In this document: positions 540 through 57,795 of the stretch, piece by piece | Position numbering within the stretch: position 1 is the stretch's first letter | How the letters are laid out: each line of letters opens with the position of its first letter | NCBI RefSeq assembly: GCF_008017535.1 | Contig: NZ_VRUA01000012.1 | Span: 62,001 to 126,000 of the forward strand | Direction: 5' to 3' | DNA from: Ottowia flava | Lineage (GTDB): Bacteria; Pseudomonadota; Gammaproteobacteria; Burkholderiales; Burkholderiaceae_C | Length of the DNA stretch: 64,000 bases | The notes under the pieces: model-generated | What the model was told of the DNA's origin: nothing | The model's input: the letters and a program-made list of their open reading frames with translations, nothing else | Databases searched by the model: none | Position numbers and translations under genes: made by a program

Positions 540-3500
540 ATGTGGTTCACCAAGGTCAGCCTGAACAACCCGGTCTTCGCCACCATGGTGATGCTGGCGT
601 TCGTGGTGCTGGGCCTGTTTTCGCTGCAGCGGTTGCAGGTCGACCAGTTTCCGAACATCGACTTTCCGGTGGTCGTGATCACCACCGAATACCCCGGCGC
701 GGCGCCCGCCATCGTTGAAAGCGAAGTCACCAAAAAGGTAGAGGAAGCCGTCAACTCGATCGCCGGCATCAACTCGCTGTACTCGCGCAGCTACGAGGGG
801 ATGTCGGTGGTGATCATCGAATTCCAGCTGCACATCGAAGGCCGCAAGGCCGCCGACGACGTGCGCGAAAAGATCGGCCAGGTGCGTCCGCTGCTGCGCG
901 ACGAGGTGAAAGAGCCGCGCGTGCTGCGCTTCGACCCGGCCAGCCGTGCGGTGTGGTCGCTGGCCGTCTTGCCGGATGCGAAAGAGGGCCAGAAGGCACC
1001 CACCCAGATTGAGCTGACGAACTGGGCCGATCAGGTTCTCAAAAAGCGCCTCGAAAACGTGCGCGGCGTGGGCGCCGTCAACCTGGTGGGCGGCGCCAAG
1101 CGTGAGATCCACATCTACCTGAACCCGACCGCGCTGGAGGCGCTGGCGGTGACGCCCGAGCAGGTGATGGCGGCGGTGCGCAGCGAGAACCAGGACCAGC
1201 CGCTTGGCCCCGTGCGCACCGGCGCGCAGGAGCTGACGGTGCAGTTGGAAGGCCGGCTGACGCGGCCAGAGGACTTTGGCCGCATCATCGTCGCGCGGCG
1301 CGGCGGCAGCGCCATCACGCTGGACCAGGTCGCCACCGTGCACGACGGCGCCCAGGAGCTGGAGACACTGGCCCACTTCAATGGCCAGCGGATGCTGCTG
1401 GTGGCGGTGCAGAAGGCGCAGGACGAAAACACGATCGAGGTGGTGGACGGGCTGAACGCCGCCATCGCGCAGCTGAAGGCCGAGCTGCCCCCGGGCGTGA
1501 AGCTGGAGCCGGTGGTCGACCAGTCGCGCCAGATCCGCGTGGCGGTGAAGAACGTGCGCCAGACGCTGATCGAGGGCGCGCTGCTGACGGTGCTGATCGT
1601 CTTCCTGTTCCTGAACAGCTGGCGCAGCACGGTGATCACCGGGCTGACGCTGCCGATCTCGATCATCGGCACCTTCTTTTTCATGCAGGCCTTCGGCTTC
1701 ACCATCAACATGATCACGCTGATGGCGCTGAGCCTGTGCGTGGGCCTGCTGATCGACGACGCGATCGTGGTGCGCGAGAACATCGTGCGCCACGCGCAGA
1801 TGGGCAAGGCGCCGTGGCCGGCGGCGATGCAGGGCACGCAGGAGATCGGCCTGGCGGTGCTGGCGACCACGCTGTCGATCGTCGCGGTGTTCCTGCCGAT
1901 CGGCTTCATGCAGGGGATCATCGGCAAGTTCTTCCACGAATTCGGCATCACCATCGTGGCCGCGGTGCTGATTTCGATGTTCGTCGCCTTCACGCTGGAC
2001 CCGATGCTGTCGTCGGTGTGGGAAGACCCGGCCATGCACGCGCACGGCCAGCGCGGGCAGCAGCCAGCAACGCTGTACGACCGCACGCTGGGCCGCGTGA
2101 CCGGCTGGTTTGACCGCGCCACCGAAGCGCTGGCAGGCGCCTACCAGCGCCTGCTGGCCTGGTCGCTGGCGCACAAGGCGCTGACCCTGCTGGTGGCGGC
2201 GGCGATCTTCGCGGCCAGCGTGTTCATGGTGCGCCTGCTGGGCACGGAATTCGTGCCGAAGGCGGACTTTTCCGAAACCACGGTGGCCTTCTACACGCCG
2301 CAAGGCTCGTCGCTGGAGGCGACCGAGGCCAAGGCGCGCCAGGTGGACGCCATCCTGCGCAGCTACCCCGAGGTGCGCTACACCGTGACCACCATCAACA
2401 CCGGCGCGGCGCAGGGCAAGACCAACGCCAGCCTGTACGTGCGCCTGACCGACCGCGAAGGGCGCACCCGCAGCGCCGAGGTGCTGGCCGCCGACTTCCG
2501 CCAGCGCCTGGCCGCCGTGCCCGGCATCACGGTGACGCAGTCGGGCGTGATGGAGCCGGTGGGCGGACAAAAGCAGATCGAGTTTTCGCTGCAGGGGCCC
2601 GACCAGGCGGAGCTGGAGCGCCTGGCGCGCCCGCTGCTGGAACGCCTGCAGGCGATTCCTGGCCTGGTCGATCTCGACTCCAGCAGCAAGCCGGACAAGC
2701 CGACGGTGCAGGTCACCGTCAAGCGCGAAGCGGCGTCGGAGCTGGGCCTGTCCAGCGCGCAGGTGGCGGCGCCGCTGCGCACCCTGGTGGCCGGCACCAC
2801 GGTGGGCAACTGGCGCGCGCCGGACGACCAGACCTACGACGTGATCGTGCGGCTGGCGCCCGCGGCGCGCACCACCATGCAGGACCTGGAACGCCTGCCG
2901 CTCACGGCCGGCGCCAACGCCGATGGCACGCCGCGCATCGTGCGCCTGAACCAGGTGGCCACGCTGAGCGAAGCCACCGGCACCAACCAGATCAACCGCC
3001 GTGCCATGCTGCGCGAGATCCAGATCACGGCCAACGTGGCGGGCCGCAGCACGGGCGAGGTGTCGGGCGACATCCGTGCGCTGCTGAACGACATGGCGAT
3101 CCCGCCCGGCTACACCACCACCTTTGGCGGCGCCACCAAGAACATGCAGGAATCGTTCGCCTACGCGCTGCAGGCGCTGGCCATGGCGATCATCTTCATC
3201 TACATGATCCTCGCCAGCCAGTTCAAGAGCTTTTTGCAGCCGCTGGCGCTGATGACCTCGCTGCCGCTCACGCTGATCGGCGTGGTGCTCGCGCTGCTGC
3301 TGTTCGGCTCCAGCATGTCGATGTTCTCGATCATCGGCATCGTCATGCTGATGGGCCTGGTGACCAAGAACGCCATCCTGCTGGTCGACTTTGCCATTCG
3401 CGCGCGCGAGGGCCGCGTGGGCGACGGCGAACACACCGAGCCGCTGCCGCGCGATCAGGCGCTGTTGCTGGCCGCACGGGTGCGCCTGCGCCCCATCCTG

Positions 3501-11661: not shown

Positions 11662-11716
11662 AGCGCTATGTTTTAAGTAGCTACCTGCGCCGATGGTTGT
11701 AGCGCCACAGACCTTT
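11662..11716 (-). repeat. Dispersed hairpin repeat, copy 2
   Basis: Reverse-orientation copy behind gloA. It shows CTATGTTTTAAGTAGCTA as the AT-rich hairpin, then CCTGCGCCGATGG and TTGTAGCGCCACAGACC. Confidence 0.75.
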
Positions 11717-11733
11717 TTCTTTCATACTTGACC

Positions 11734-13424: not shown

Positions 13425-13489
13425 AAGCCAAATCGATCCCAAACCCTACAACCGTCAGCGCAAGTAGCTTCTATTTTAATAGCAAAACG
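13425..13489 (+). repeat. Dispersed hairpin repeat, copy 3
   Basis: Forward copy between two convergent genes. CCCTACAACCGTCAGCGC is followed by AGTAGCTTCTATTTTAATAG. The hairpin arms CTATT and AATAG are complementary. Confidence 0.75.
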
Positions 13490-15603: not shown

Positions 15604-15662
15604 GAAAAATCGGGCATCAGCCCTACAACCCACTGCGCAACCAGCTATGGTTTAGATAGCGC
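15604..15662 (+). repeat. Dispersed hairpin repeat, copy 4
   Basis: Forward copy in the pdxH-acyltransferase gap. AGCCCTACAACCCACTGCGC is followed by the hairpin GCTATGGTTTAGATAGC, with perfect 5-bp arms. Confidence 0.85.
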
Positions 15663-26608: not shown

Positions 26609-26992
26609 AGATCAGGCTGGCATCGACCGTCATATCTTAAGAAAATAGCCATTCGGCCCTACAACCACTTGCGCAAGCAGCTTCCAGATCGATAGCAATT
26701 AACTTTCCGATATCGCTCGCAACCGGTTGTCGGTCGAGGCAGTTGCGGGCGAACCTCTGATCCGCGCCGACTTCTCCATGGGAAAAAAACACGCAACGCT
26801 GATGCGAGGCGTCTGCCTCGCTGCCTGCCATCCCAACGCTAATGTGGCGCTACCCAATCCGGTCATGGAAGGACCATCACACGCCAAGGACTGTTCGAAC
26901 CAGCCCTTGCCTCGTCGGTTCTTCTGGGAAAACCCATCTAACCACCGCGAAAAAAACGCCCCCGACTGCGCTGCAGAGAGCGCATCAAGCGA
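26609..26992. other. Gene-free stretch between thioredoxin-like gene and sbcB
   Basis: About 380 bp between convergent genes. Its left end holds repeat copy 6. The rest shows no recognisable gene, RNA or terminator; short frames here have no protein similarity that I recognise. Confidence 0.5.
26643..26698 (+). repeat. Dispersed hairpin repeat, copy 6
   Basis: A near-complete forward copy: TTCGGCCCTACAACCACT, TGCGCAAGCAGCTT and CCAGATCGATAGC. The hairpin arms are degraded here. Confidence 0.85.
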
Positions 26993-28438: not shown

Positions 28439-28496
28439 GGTGGCGCGAGCATAACCGCCGACCACAGGCGAGCGCAGCGTTGGCGCCAAGGACTGC

Positions 28497-28545
28497 ACTT
28501 TTGATAGCTGCTCGCGCAGATGGCACCGGCGCTGGAGCCCGATAT
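28497..28545 (-). repeat. Dispersed hairpin repeat, copy 7
   Basis: Reverse copy with CTTTTGATAGCTGCTCGCGC, AGATGGCACC and GGCGCTGGAGCCCGAT. It resembles copy 1 closely in its left half. Confidence 0.65.
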
Positions 28546-36011: not shown

Positions 36012-36066
36012 ATACTATTGTTTCAATAGCTGCCTGCGCAGATGGTTGTAGGGCTATAGGCCAAAA
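36012..36066 (-). repeat. Dispersed hairpin repeat, copy 9
   Basis: A well-preserved reverse copy upstream of the bd oxidase genes. CTATTGTTTCAATAGCTGC is followed by CTGCGCAGATGGTTGTAGGG and CTATAGGCC. The arms CTATTG and CAATAG are a perfect inverted repeat. Confidence 0.9.
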
Positions 36067-36165
36067 TCCCTTAAAAACAGCCTTTTGCCCCGCCTGCAGG
36101 CCGTGCACCGCCACGCAGCATCCCGAAGCTGCCGGTCATACCGACATGTCACCTGGGGTTTTCCC

Positions 36166-38762: not shown

Positions 38763-38818
38763 CCGCTATCAATTAAGAAGCTGCCTGCGCTGGTGGCTGT
38801 AGGGCTGCAGGCCAAAAA
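38763..38818 (-). repeat. Dispersed hairpin repeat, copy 10
   Basis: Reverse copy: GCTATCAATTAAGAAGCTGC, CTGCGCTGGTGGCTGTAGG and GCTGCAGGCC. It lies just before a bidirectional terminator. Confidence 0.85.
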
Positions 38819-41119: not shown

Positions 41120-41596
41120 CTGTCTCTCCTTGGATGTTGGGATGCCATGCCCGGGCAGGGGCGCAGGCCGGGCGCGTGTGGCGCCGGTCGCCGGTCCGGG
41201 CGGTCATCCCCGATTGTGCGGTGCCCGTGGCGGGCTGAATCTCCAATTACGCAACGATTTCCCACCATGCGGGATTTGACCGAACTATTTTGTTCACCTG
41301 GCGCAAGAAGCGCGCATTTGGGGTACGGCGGCGGCAGTGGCGCGACGACTGCAGCGCGTGCTGGCCACAGCCGGCCTGCTGAACCCTGAAGCCACTGACC
41401 CGCGTCTGACCGCATTCACTTGGTGCTCACCAGCGATCTGGCTGACTTGGAGGCCGCGGCGCGGCGTTGGCGGCTCAATTCGCCGGAATGTGCTGCAACC
41501 GCCCGTTAAGACACATTTTGGCTTGTAGCCCTACAGCCACCTGCGCGGAAAGCTCCTGAATCAGGAGCATTGACCGCGACTGCGATGCAATCTGCC
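41120..41596. other. Gene-free stretch upstream of monomeric idh
   Basis: About 480 bp. It holds repeat copy 11 near its right end. Around 41337-41500 a GC-rich piece stays open in more than one frame, for a few dozen codons, but no similarity is recognisable. The idh promoter should lie near 41140-41300. Confidence 0.5.
41515..41568 (+). repeat. Dispersed hairpin repeat, copy 11 (alternate hairpin)
   Basis: TAGCCCTACAGCCACCTGCG is followed by the hairpin GCTCCTGAATCAGGAGC. Here both arms differ from the GCTAT/ATAGC type but remain complementary. Confidence 0.88.
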
Positions 41597-45724: not shown

Positions 45725-45779
45725 TGCTACATTAATGGTAGCTGGCCGCGCAGATGGCTCTAGGGCCGGGCCGCGAAAT
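45725..45779 (-). repeat. Dispersed hairpin repeat, copy 12
   Basis: Reverse copy between clpX and lon. GCTACATTAATGGTAGC is the hairpin, followed by TGGCCGCGCAGATGGCTC and TAGGGCCGGGCC. Confidence 0.85.
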
Positions 45780-47842: not shown

Positions 47843-47943
47843 GAAAACTCCAAGTTAGGTCTGGTCAAGCAAATGGGGCCGGAACCCACCGATTCCAAGC
47901 CCCACGCATGGGGCGCGTGCCGTCACCCCCCCCGTTGCAAACG

Positions 47944-47994
47944 ATTTCGCCCTCTGGCCCTACAACCACCTGCGCGGCCAGCTATCAAAATCGC
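47944..47994 (+). repeat. Dispersed hairpin repeat, copy 13
   Basis: Forward copy: TCTGGCCCTACAACCACC, TGCGCGGCCAGCTATC and AAAATCGC. The hairpin right arm is reduced. Confidence 0.85.
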
Positions 47995-48070
47995 AGTATC
48001 CGGTATTCATCACTTCAAACGAGAAGCCTGTCGCCAGCGCCTTCGCCACCTCCACCAGCAGACACCGCGG

Positions 48071-50793: not shown

Positions 50794-52212
50794 TCAGCGC
50801 GGCCGCGGTGTGACGACGCTGAGATCAACCTTGCCATCCGCAAGGGTGGCGGTCAGCGCCTGCCCGATGTGCGTGTCGGCGGCGTGCGTCACGGCTTGGC
50901 CGTCGGCGGTTTGCAGCCAGGCGTAGCCGCGCTCCAGCACGCGCTGAGGGTCCAACGCGGCCAGGCGCAGCGCGGCGAGCGCCAGGCGCTCGTGCGCGGC
51001 GGCGCCCTGGCGCGCGACGGCGTCGGGCAGGCGTTCGCCCAGGCGCGCCAGCCGCAGCTGCTCGGCCGCCAGGCGCGGCGCCAGCGGGCGCGGCAGGCGG
51101 TCCCGCAACTGAGCGAGGCGTGCACTTTCGCGCTCCAGCCGCAGTGCCAGCGCGTGGCGCAGGCGCTGGGCCTGGCGGTCTAGGCGCAGGCGTTCGGCGG
51201 CCACGGCGTCGGACGGGCGGCTGAGGCGCCCGGCCAGCCAGTCGAGGCGCTGGCTTTCGGCGTCGACGCGGCGGCGCAGGGCGCGCGCCAGTCGTTCGGC
51301 CAGCGCGTCGACGTCGGCCAGGCGCTGGGCGCGCGGCACGCTGGCCAGCTCGGCCGCGGCGGTCGGCGTGGGTGCGCGCAGGTCGGCCACGAAGTCGGCG
51401 ATGGTGAAGTCGGTCTCATGCCCCACCCCGCTGATCAGCGGCACCGGGCTCACGGCGATGGTGCGGGCCAGGCGCTCGTCGTTGAAGGCCCACAGGTCCT
51501 CGATCGAGCCACCGCCGCGCACCAGCAGGATGACGTCGATGGGCGGCGCGCCGTCCGCTGCGACTTTTTGAGCCAAATCGGCCTCCAGCCCTACTCCCAC
51601 CTGCGCAAGAAGATACAACTTTGATAGCGCACGGCGCAACTCTTCAGGCGCCCCCGCGCCCTGCACCGCCGCCGGCACGACGACCACCGGGATGTGCGGC
51701 ACGCGCCGCGCCAGCGCCGTCAGCACGTCGTGCAGCGCCGCCGCCGCCAGCGAGGTGACCACGCCGATGGCGCGCGGCGTCTCGGGCAGCGGGCGCTTGC
51801 GTTCGGCGTGGAACAGGCCTTCGGCCTCCAGTTGGGCCTTCAGGCGCAGAAACTGCTCGAACAGCGCGCCCTGCCCGGCGCGCTGCATGGATTCGACCAC
51901 CAGCTGCAAATCGCCGCGCGGCTCGTACACCGCCACGCGCCCGCGCACCTCGACCTGGTCGCCCTCGCGCGGGTTGAAGTTCAGCAGCCCCGCGGCGCGC
52001 CGGAACATGGCGCAGCGCAGCTGGCCGGCCTCGTCCTTGAGTGAAAAGTAGCAGTGCCCGCTGGCCGCGCGGGTGAAGCCCGAAATCTCGCCGCGCACCG
52101 CCACGGGATTGAAGCGCGCCTCCAGCGCGTCAGCAATGGCGCGGGTCAGCGCGCCAACCGCCCAGATACGCGGCGCACTGGCGGGCGGTTGAACGAAAAA
52201 GTCAGATTCCAT
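50794..52212 (-). CDS. xseA: Exodeoxyribonuclease VII large subunit
   Basis: A 472-residue nuclease subunit. It has an N-terminal OB-fold (about 10-115, WAVGALTRAIADALEARF, VRGEISGFTRAASGHCYFSLKD) and the catalytic region with VPLISGVGHETDFTIADFVADLRAPTP near 265, then a long coiled-coil domain (about 290-440). Positions 51573-51629 inside the gene match the dispersed repeat and add a peptide (ALSKLYLLAQVGVGLEADLAQK) that interrupts the usual VQG...DVILLVRGGG stretch. The frame stays open. xseB is not adjacent. The ATG at 52212 gives the family start. Confidence 0.94.
   Translation of the reverse strand: MESDFFVQPPASAPRIWAVGALTRAIADALEARFNPVAVRGEISGFTRAASGHCYFSLKDEAGQLRCAMFRRAAGLLNFNPREGDQVEVRGRVAVYEPRGDLQLVVESMQRAGQGALFEQFLRLKAQLEAEGLFHAERKRPLPETPRAIGVVTSLAAAALHDVLTALARRVPHIPVVVVPAAVQGAGAPEELRRALSKLYLLAQVGVGLEADLAQKVAADGAPPIDVILLVRGGGSIEDLWAFNDERLARTIAVSPVPLISGVGHETDFTIADFVADLRAPTPTAAAELASVPRAQRLADVDALAERLARALRRRVDAESQRLDWLAGRLSRPSDAVAAERLRLDRQAQRLRHALALRLERESARLAQLRDRLPRPLAPRLAAEQLRLARLGERLPDAVARQGAAAHERLALAALRLAALDPQRVLERGYAWLQTADGQAVTHAADTHIGQALTATLADGKVDLSVVTPRPR
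51573..51629 (+). repeat. Dispersed hairpin repeat, copy 14, within xseA
   Basis: This copy matches the family from AATCGGCCTCCAGCCCTACT through CCCACCTGCGC to ACTTTGATAGC. It lies inside the xseA reading frame on the opposite strand and is translated. Confidence 0.9.
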
Positions 52213-53735: not shown

Positions 53736-53790
53736 AGAAATCGGCCCGCAGCCCTACAGCCACCTGCGCAGGCAGCTCCTGATTCAGGAG
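53736..53790 (+). repeat. Dispersed hairpin repeat, copy 15 (alternate hairpin)
   Basis: CAGCCCTACAGCCACCTGCG is followed by GCTCCTGATTCAGGAG. It carries the same alternate arms as copy 11. Confidence 0.9.
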
Positions 53791-54126: not shown

Positions 54127-55176
54127 ATGCCCGAAAGCCTGTCGCTCGAACACCGCCTGCGCGCCGCCTGGCAGCGCCGTGGGCCGCTGGCGTGCGTGCT
54201 GTGGCCGCTCTCGCTGCTGTACGGCGCGGTGGCGACGTGGCAGCGGCGGCGCGGGCTGGCGCGCGCGGAGCGGCTGCCGGTGCCGGTCGTGGTCGTCGGC
54301 AACGTGGTGGCCGGCGGCGCGGGCAAAACGCCGACCACGCTGGCCGTGGTGCGCCACCTGCAGGCGCGCGGCTGGCGGCCGGGCATCGTGTCGCGCGGCT
54401 ACGGGCGCACCCGGTTCGACCCCGCCGCGCCGGATGCGCCGGTGCCCGTCACGCCCCAGTCAGACCCGTTCGCGGTGGGCGACGAAGCGCTGCTGCTGCG
54501 CCAGCGCGCGGGCGTGCCCGTCTTCGTTGCCCGCCAGCGCGCCGACGCCGGCCGCGCCCTGCTGGCGGCGCACCCCGACTGCGACATCCTGGTCTGCGAC
54601 GACGGCCTGCAACACTGGGCGCTGGCGCACGACGTGGCCATCTGCGTGTTCGACGCGCGCGGCGTGGGCAACGGCTGGCGGCTGCCCGCCGGCCCGCTGC
54701 GCGAAGCCTGGCCCCGCCCGGTCGACCTGGTGCTGCGCACCGAACCAGGGCCGGACTTGCCCCTGCCGCCGGGCGCGGAGGCCTTCAGCGCCGCGCGCCG
54801 CCTGGCCGACCACGCCGTGCGCGCTGACGGCAGCACGGTCGCGCTGGCCGACTTGCGCGGTGCGGCCAAAACACGGGTCGCCGTGGCCGGCATCGCCCGG
54901 CCCGAGGCCTTTTTCGACATGCTGCGCGCCGCCGGATTGACCTTGCACGAGACCATCGCGCTGCCCGATCACTACGATTTCAGTAGCTGGCCGCGCAAAT
55001 CTGGCGCTGGCGAGACGGTGATTTGCACCGAAAAAGACGCCGTCAAACTGTGGCACCACGCGCCGCACGCCCTGGCGGTGCCGCTGCAGCTGGAGGTGCC
55101 CACAGCGTTCTTCGACGCGCTGGATCGGCGGCTGGCAGCGCGGGGCTATCATCCCCGCACGCCGGCCGCGCCTTAG
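54127..55176 (+). CDS. lpxK: Tetraacyldisaccharide 4'-kinase
   Basis: A 349-residue inner-membrane kinase that phosphorylates the lipid A disaccharide. It has an N-terminal membrane helix (about residues 20-37), the P-loop VVAGGAGKTPT near 61-71, the segment CDILVCDDGLQHWALAHD, and the C-terminal ICTEKDAVKLW. The ATG at 54127 gives the usual start. Positions 54978-55012 within the gene resemble the dispersed repeat (FSSWPRKSGAGE). Confidence 0.96.
   Translation: MPESLSLEHRLRAAWQRRGPLACVLWPLSLLYGAVATWQRRRGLARAERLPVPVVVVGNVVAGGAGKTPTTLAVVRHLQARGWRPGIVSRGYGRTRFDPAAPDAPVPVTPQSDPFAVGDEALLLRQRAGVPVFVARQRADAGRALLAAHPDCDILVCDDGLQHWALAHDVAICVFDARGVGNGWRLPAGPLREAWPRPVDLVLRTEPGPDLPLPPGAEAFSAARRLADHAVRADGSTVALADLRGAAKTRVAVAGIARPEAFFDMLRAAGLTLHETIALPDHYDFSSWPRKSGAGETVICTEKDAVKLWHHAPHALAVPLQLEVPTAFFDALDRRLAARGYHPRTPAAP
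54978..55012 (-). repeat. Partial dispersed repeat within lpxK
   Basis: TTTCAGTAGCTGGCCGCGC and AAATCTGGCGCTGGCG match the core of copy 12 in reverse orientation. No hairpin arm is visible. It lies in the lpxK reading frame. Confidence 0.55.
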
Positions 55177-57739: not shown

Positions 57740-57795
57740 CAAATCAGCCTCCAGCGCGCTCCCAGTCTGCGCAGACAGCTATCAAAACAGAAGCG
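57740..57795 (+). repeat. Dispersed hairpin repeat, copy 17
   Basis: Forward copy in the esterase-kdsB interval: AAATCAGCCTCCAGCGCGCT, CCCAGTCTGCGCAGACAGC and TATCAAAACAG. The right arm is reduced. Confidence 0.8.

Follow-up and report, generated by a model that had tools for sequence, protein, structure and literature searches.

The repeat copy in xseA

The window analysed here, a stretch of 64,000 nucleotides on contig C4 of genome G000 (G-numbers denote genomes and L-numbers fetched loci or alignment rows), carries on the minus strand, at 50794–52212, the gene xseA for the large subunit of exonuclease VII (472 residues; Pfam Exonuc_VII_L, E 1.5e-99). Iterated profile searches placed a repeat copy at 51566–51629, on the plus strand with respect to the profile and opposite to the strand from which xseA is read. 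The copy lies wholly within the gene and in frame, and codons 195–214 (51571–51630, minus strand) translate into the repeat-derived peptide ALSKLYLLAQVGVGLEADLA. A sequence-only reading of this DNA had pointed to a repeat match at 51573–51629 and to a peptide encoded by it on the opposite strand as part of XseA, and both observations held. A profile that had seen nothing but the other contigs of G000 recovered the copy at 51575–51628 with 35.6 bits (E 4.9e-10), which ranked it tenth among the 18 copies found in the window at E < 1e-3, and when the window was shuffled 20 times with its dinucleotides preserved, no match reached this threshold (best score, 12.4 bits). When the xseA stretch was searched by BLAST against the whole genome at least 40 matches were returned, the best 40 of 218 candidates, once scored, all proved to match (40/40), and the best foreign match had an E value of 7.1e-11. 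The stretch 51566–51629 is confirmed as a genuine copy of a degenerate dispersed repeat of about 50–64 nt, whose profile measured 51–64 nt and whose copies, as measured on 73 from G000, had a mean length of 50 nt and a GC content of 0.549 (0.43–0.69).

Elsewhere in the window, intergenic copies were located by profile at 26643–26696 (+), 28494–28545 (−), 36015–36067 (−), 41515–41568 (+), 45726–45779 (−) and 47943–47996 (+). Genome G011 had a copy at the matching place for those at 458–510 (−, in the same orientation), 11665–11718 (−), 13429–13483 (+) and 57741–57794 (+), and both G011 and G014 had one for that at 38765–38815 (−). The G011 gap corresponding to the copy at 15607–15660 (+) was devoid of it, and none was found in the gaps of G011, G014 and G023 corresponding to 53737–53790 (+). 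A second genic copy, at 54972–55025 (−), lies in the plus-strand gene 54127–55176, a putative lpxK to judge from a motif; G011, G014 and G023 have copies at the matching place. Above the gathering score, Rfam 15 matched only five tRNAs in the window and no RNA family at the repeat. Two tRNA genes of the window are duplicated about 350 bases apart (42472–42547/42831–42906 and 42632–42711/42981–43060), the copies being 99–100% identical.

The insert in XseA across relatives

The alignment drew on XseA sequences of 60 relatives, of which 58 matched and 30 had their locus returned, together with those of 80 GTDB loci. The segment VVVVPAAVQG..DVILLVRGGG, which spans 60 residues in the window protein, measured 40–44 residues, mostly 40, in the outgroups Roseateles, Pelomonas, Ideonella, Leptothrix, Aquabacterium and Methylibium, 41–44 in Variovorax and 40–43 in Polaromonas. 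It reached up to 66 in the genus of the window and in rows of Rhodoferax, Acidovorax, Extensimonas and Comamonas, where the repeat peptide was recognisable, and the insert-bearing relatives encoded a repeat-like peptide in identical codon phase, typically as GCG CTA TCA AAA CTG TAT CTG CTT GCG CAG. The sequence-only reading had given the site as short in the Escherichia coli enzyme and, indeed, pairwise alignment with the one matching PDB sequence, the E. coli XseA structure 8txr, showed about 20 residues absent there. No comparable peptide of equal length was seen in distant groups: it is missing from E. coli, and the 24 genomes examined from other families of the order had at most one marginal match to the repeat each. 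The proposal that XseA carries an in-frame coding insert of repeat origin, made in the sequence-only reading, was upheld.

On a quick tree of 107 XseA rows built with the insert columns removed, 39 rows carried the insert, 40 were short and 28 had none, and the insert states needed at least seven changes (short rows uncounted). "Insert" was defined here by a repeat score of at least 8, taken from a profile that included the xseA copy of the window, or by a length of at least 53 residues (L080 and L108, for example, by length alone); the duplicate query as well as L001, the fragments L031 and L101, and L020, which has an internal stop, were left out. Since the codon phase is shared between genera, a single ancestral insertion followed by several losses is the simplest reading, and the alignment supports an apparently old insert, common to several genera and lost or eroded in others; its patchy presence could also mean several gains. 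The xseA frames of L020 (G008) and L031 (G017) have an internal stop or are in two pieces, and in these draft genomes either error or decay may be the cause. In L064 (match 2001–3488) the loop extends to 111 residues and the first insert is followed by a second, different repeat-like stretch, PHPHPLPKGEGE ... GRGRGEGP, so that the XseA site seems tolerant of repeated insertion.

Read in the xseA frame, the G000 repeat consensus has TGA TAG where xseA has TTG TAT and tmk has TTG GAG, and the coding copies depart from the consensus at its conserved ATAG. The conserved TAG is therefore an in-frame stop of the consensus and the repeat is not ready-made coding DNA. Over 13 genomes of the genus, dN/dS (point estimates) was 0.21 for the first half of the peptide (LSKLYLLAQ), 0.59 for the second half and 0.40 for the ten codons preceding the insert, values which show the first half to be under what appears to be a stronger protein constraint than the second within the genus.

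A structure model, proposed earlier as a way to look for a surface loop, was predicted from 35 sequences (mean pLDDT 85.8), with E. coli ExoVII as the best Foldseek match in the PDB. A helix at residues 188–204 spans the first half of the peptide, and beyond it the insert was modelled as a loop and then a short helix, in blocks that average 73 and 52; the added residues thus form the end of a helix and a low-confidence loop. This fits a predicted lengthening of the helix that leads into a flexible loop at the surface.

Copies in other genes and genomes

The repeat is not confined to xseA among genes. The window's contig provides an unbiased figure of 42 copies in 124 kb, five of them in genes, which by extrapolation would amount to about 1,400 copies in the 4.12 Mb genome; counts that include loci L140–L149 are biased, because these loci were chosen near BLAST matches of the xseA copy. 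In 264 kb of G000, part of it picked for its nearness to BLAST matches, we counted 62 intergenic copies and 19 lying wholly in predicted genes, and over the stretches of four genomes 58 of 222 copies fell in predicted genes, the gene calls being those of our own script and the Pfam check covering xseA and ten other proteins. These ten hosts of genic copies had clear Pfam assignments: PurL, a UvrD-type helicase-nuclease, SelO, an HI0933-like protein, a TrmB-like methyltransferase, a GCV_T protein, thymidylate kinase, MiaA, an FGGY kinase and MutL. The coding insert in XseA is one of many genic copies (tmk, miaA, mutL and purL among them). Intergenic copies were scarce between divergent genes (5 of 60 copies with both neighbours known vs. 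34 of the 160 gaps that measured 50 bases or more), and in tandem gaps they showed no preferred orientation (21 same, 20 opposite).

In tmk the corresponding segment measured 43 residues in 11 of 12 rows from other families and 47 in the remaining one, whereas the 17 rows of the genus had 48–69, as a rule 55, and judging from these lengths tmk is a probable insertion event of the same kind as xseA. A net gain of about three residues occurred at the repeat in miaA and a repeat-like stretch of SelO left the length unchanged in 15 of 15 rows, which implies that genic copies are not all clean insertions. The SelO stretch would also suit the idea that no repeat is involved and that a variable host loop resembles it by chance, as would the motif "AL..LY.L", present upstream in rows devoid of the insert such as those of Variovorax. 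Against the score that the xseA copy reached with an independent profile, its absence from all shuffles and the similar tmk insert, however, chance likeness has a negligible probability, and we proceed with a true repeat copy.

A model using sequence alone (44 copies from four genomes), with per-genome counts of up to at least 98, matched 25 of 29 genomes of the genus, four of seven other genomes of the family and one of 24 from other families of the order, where the match was marginal and the only one. A generic query found repeats in six of nine genomes and none in those tested of Variovorax, Limnohabitans and Brachymonas. Local absence occurred as well, G007 having 25 matches genome-wide and none in a stretch of 71 kb. 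Of the 58 genomes in which XseA matched, the 30 whose loci had been returned were scored after removal of two xseA copies from the 44-row profile. The xseA segment was recognisable (at least 8 bits) in 13 of the 18 that had 50 or more repeat matches and in none of the 12 with fewer (Fisher p 9e-5, a value that ignores kinship). In repeat-poor genomes the segment was often still 49–60 residues long, as if the loop had persisted while its likeness to the repeat faded.

Inherited sites and genome dialects

On the common frame A GCT .. GCGC .. GCGC the repeat consensus differed between genomes, reading CTGCCTGCGCAGGTGGTTGTAGGGCTGGAGGCC in G000 and CTGCCAGCGCTGGTGCCACCAGCGCTGGAGGC in G011, and we refer to these genome-specific forms as dialects. 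They were compared in four genomes (median ortholog identity 74–85%) with profiles whose training regions were kept apart from the test regions, and copies were paired if they lay between orthologous neighbour genes or occupied equivalent positions within orthologous genes. For each pair the score with the own dialect minus that with the other was summed over both copies, and in this contrast unequal profiles and unequal copies cancel out. Both copies pointed the same way in 21 of 23 intergenic and 29 of 29 genic pairs (50/52 in total). The summed contrast was positive in all 21 intergenic (mean 22.0 bits) and all 29 genic pairs (mean 23.2 bits); the two intergenic pairs of opposite orientation, left out of this sign count, were positive too. 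These pairs overlap and are not independent, and G000 vs. G011 alone gave 24 of 24.

The contrast for xseA was +28.1 (G000–G011), +34.3 (G000–G014) and +22.7 bits (G011–G014), and with separately trained profiles tmk and miaA gave +31.4 and +38.4 between G000 and G011. In 23 of the 52 pairs one of the two one-sided differences did not exceed zero, the G014 side of xseA (−3.5) being an example, which reflects, at least in part, unequal profiles. In raw scores the own dialect fitted xseA best in two (G000 and G016) of the 13 genomes with a dialect profile, and the insert of L043, from another genus, resembled that of G000 (34.9 bits). The xseA copy alone is equivocal with respect to dialect and may have kept ancestral letters; our claim is drawn from all sites together. 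A permutation test (1 of 3000) was biased, its G000 profile including the tmk and miaA copies of that genome, and a stricter synteny test with fewer regions gave seven of eight positive pairs (p 0.07).

Orthologous copies were 0.668 identical vs. 0.587 when re-paired, with none of 1000 re-pairings as high, and random pairs of copies were 0.626 identical within G000 vs. 0.574 across genomes, the other two genome pairs being similar. The greater likeness of orthologous copies, taken with the fit of each genome to its own dialect, indicates sites of common descent whose letters have shifted toward the genome-wide form: the sites are inherited, and their letters and encoded peptides apparently drift with the repeat family of the genome.

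Two other histories of these sites were weighed against this picture. One is a single old insertion that decayed by descent only, the fit of xseA to its own dialect being kept ancestry or chance. The raw scores of xseA would agree with it, as would the string GGGCT(G/A)GAG that L043, L041, L049 and G025 share with G000. The contrast was nonetheless positive at every same-orientation genic and intergenic pair with independently trained profiles, and the tmk and miaA inserts of G000 also fit the G000 motif best, which makes decay alone improbable. The other, independent insertion at targeted sites repeatedly in each lineage, would account for the presence of each genome's own dialect at shared sites; given the agreement in orientation, the 29 genic pairs whose copies occupy the same place in their genes and the residual similarity of orthologs, we regard it as very improbable.

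The copies of a genome were far from uniform. Near-identical copies were absent (best nearest-neighbour identity 0.917 in G000), and the mean nearest-neighbour identity was 0.789 vs. 0.750 after column shuffling, so that the copies look almost as if each had been drawn independently from one motif. The 8-mer ATAGCTGC, the best conserved in the consensus, was found outside elements in 1 of 30 cases in G000, 3 of 55 in G011, 10 of 56 in G014 and 4 of 19 in G023. In the G011 stretches, some 9-mers, TACGCGGCA among them (43 times vs. 13.6 expected), were over-represented outside the repeat and perhaps belong to another repeat or a tandem array.

Maintenance of the dialects

The explanation that we consider probable is that of an old in-frame copy at one of many inherited sites, in which the copies present in a genome have in part overwritten one another. 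A Comamonadaceae-like ancestor would have taken one copy into the loop after the "AL..LY" helix of XseA, with the in-frame TAG being, or turning into, a sense codon, and the loop would have been tolerated because, we propose, it is distant in sequence from the conserved catalytic motifs. Copies, genic ones included, would then have been partly overwritten by others of the same genome, most likely via short-tract gene conversion or annealing of single-stranded repeats at replication forks. The XseA loop sequence would consequently track the repeat dialect of its genome, and would turn ordinary in lineages where the repeat family died out. Overwriting explains the common sites, their orientation, the residual orthology and the dialects together. 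A bolder form, which we hold only tentatively and with some doubt, is that about 1000 sites of about 50 nt per genome undergo concerted evolution in place, persisting over the lifetime of genera and being overwritten all the while by their fellow copies, in housekeeping genes as well, and that the XseA, Tmk and MiaA loops change together whenever the dialect shifts.

Selection could alternatively hold the dialect, if a protein or RNA read the motif and all sites followed a change of the reader, as in DNA uptake sequences (DUS). The near independence of the copies and the lack of near-identical pairs speak for such a reader and count against overwriting, and one account (PMC3630211) reports for DUS species dialects, intragenic positions and the reader ComP. 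Yet ATAGCTGC does not behave like a free short signal, being almost limited in G000 to whole elements, and selection would need to work on hundreds of weak sites, some of them in enzyme genes. ComEC turned up in every one of the 17 genomes tested, whether rich or poor in repeats, and is uninformative on this point. We consider selection rather unlikely, though it is the main rival, and overwriting is our tentative first choice over a reader.

Should inherited coding copies indeed follow the dialect of their genome, unlinked proteins could change together neither by point mutation gene by gene nor by gene transfer, and trees or dates based on alignments of such loops would be misleading. With many sites in close species, the repeat family would offer a natural system for measuring the homogenisation of short dispersed repeats.

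Relation to known repeat families

In-frame repeats within genes are already known from Rickettsia and from some REPs. In the open-access literature we did not find described sites that are fixed and inherited yet follow a genome-wide dialect, coding copies included. Rickettsia palindromic elements (RPE), of about 150 bp, insert in frame into many unrelated genes according to PMC10969869, and the repeat described here is likewise found in frame in coding genes (xseA, tmk; about a quarter of copies genic). It differs in its length of about 50–64 nt, in the several frames used and in its occurrence in a betaproteobacterial family, and is set apart by description. The parallel with the Rickettsia elements drawn in the sequence-only reading thus stands for the way of working and fails for membership, on grounds of length and host.

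Conserved base pairing in the repeat was not supported by covariation in the alignment. Stem cells paired in 74.0% of cases vs. 25.8–47.4% in slid versions, with shuffles as high in 86 of 500, no covariation excess was found in the stems (140 of 500 shuffles as high), and the second stem was mostly unpaired in G000. Consensus strings and window copies folded no better than shuffles (z from 0.03 to 1.68, one at −0.43), and no stable RNA structure is therefore claimed.

Among Bordetella repeats, the full-length BRE measures 75–91 bp with a mean GC of 69.0% and, in Hot et al. (2011; PMC3110155), is reported in betaproteobacteria including Comamonadaceae, partly in coding sequences. The repeat here is also betaproteobacterial with some copies in coding sequences, and identity with BRE was rejected on length and GC alone (mean 50 nt and 54.9%) and not on sequence. 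DUS, of 10–12 nt and acting in transformation, are genus-wide in the account cited above (PMC3630211); they share with our repeat the species dialects and genic copies, and differ from an element of about 50 nt. A DUS-like short core was unsupported, since ATAGCTGC stood outside elements in only the one G000 case.

REPs tagged with GTAG or CGTC that occur in ORFs are 20–40 bp long, often linked to a transposase, and mostly intergenic with repair genes among the hosts, as described by Di Nocera et al. (2013; PMC3733652). The repeat here is similarly short, mostly intergenic and in some cases wholly genic, repair genes included; the tag and the transposase link are theirs, and neither is established for it. 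REPINs consist, according to PMC3116915 and PMC8049555, of two inverted REPs, extragenic and with highly conserved ends. REPIN–RAYT systems resemble our case as a within-genome population of repeats with a most common form and a single-copy tyrosine transposase gene. In contrast, the copies here are degenerate, about one quarter of them are genic, and the transposase also occurs in two repeat-free genomes among those tested; the near-identical master-sequence copies characteristic of REPINs were not seen in G000 (within-genome mean identity 0.626, best neighbour 0.917).

G000 has a single PF01797 (Y1 transposase) gene flanked by two repeats (L119: 691–745 and 2165–2214, the second starting just past the frame), and two repeats in this 3.3 kb locus compare with about one expected from density. 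PF01797 was detected in 17 of 18 genomes, including the repeat-free G064 and G067, and was not found in the repeat-rich draft G016. A RAYT is not favoured as the mover of the repeat, the gene being present also in genomes devoid of repeats. In G014, 20 PF01797 matches, some of them in pieces (for example L200, L217, L222 and L224), were counted vs. one to four in the other matching genomes, an apparent expansion of the transposase family in that genome.
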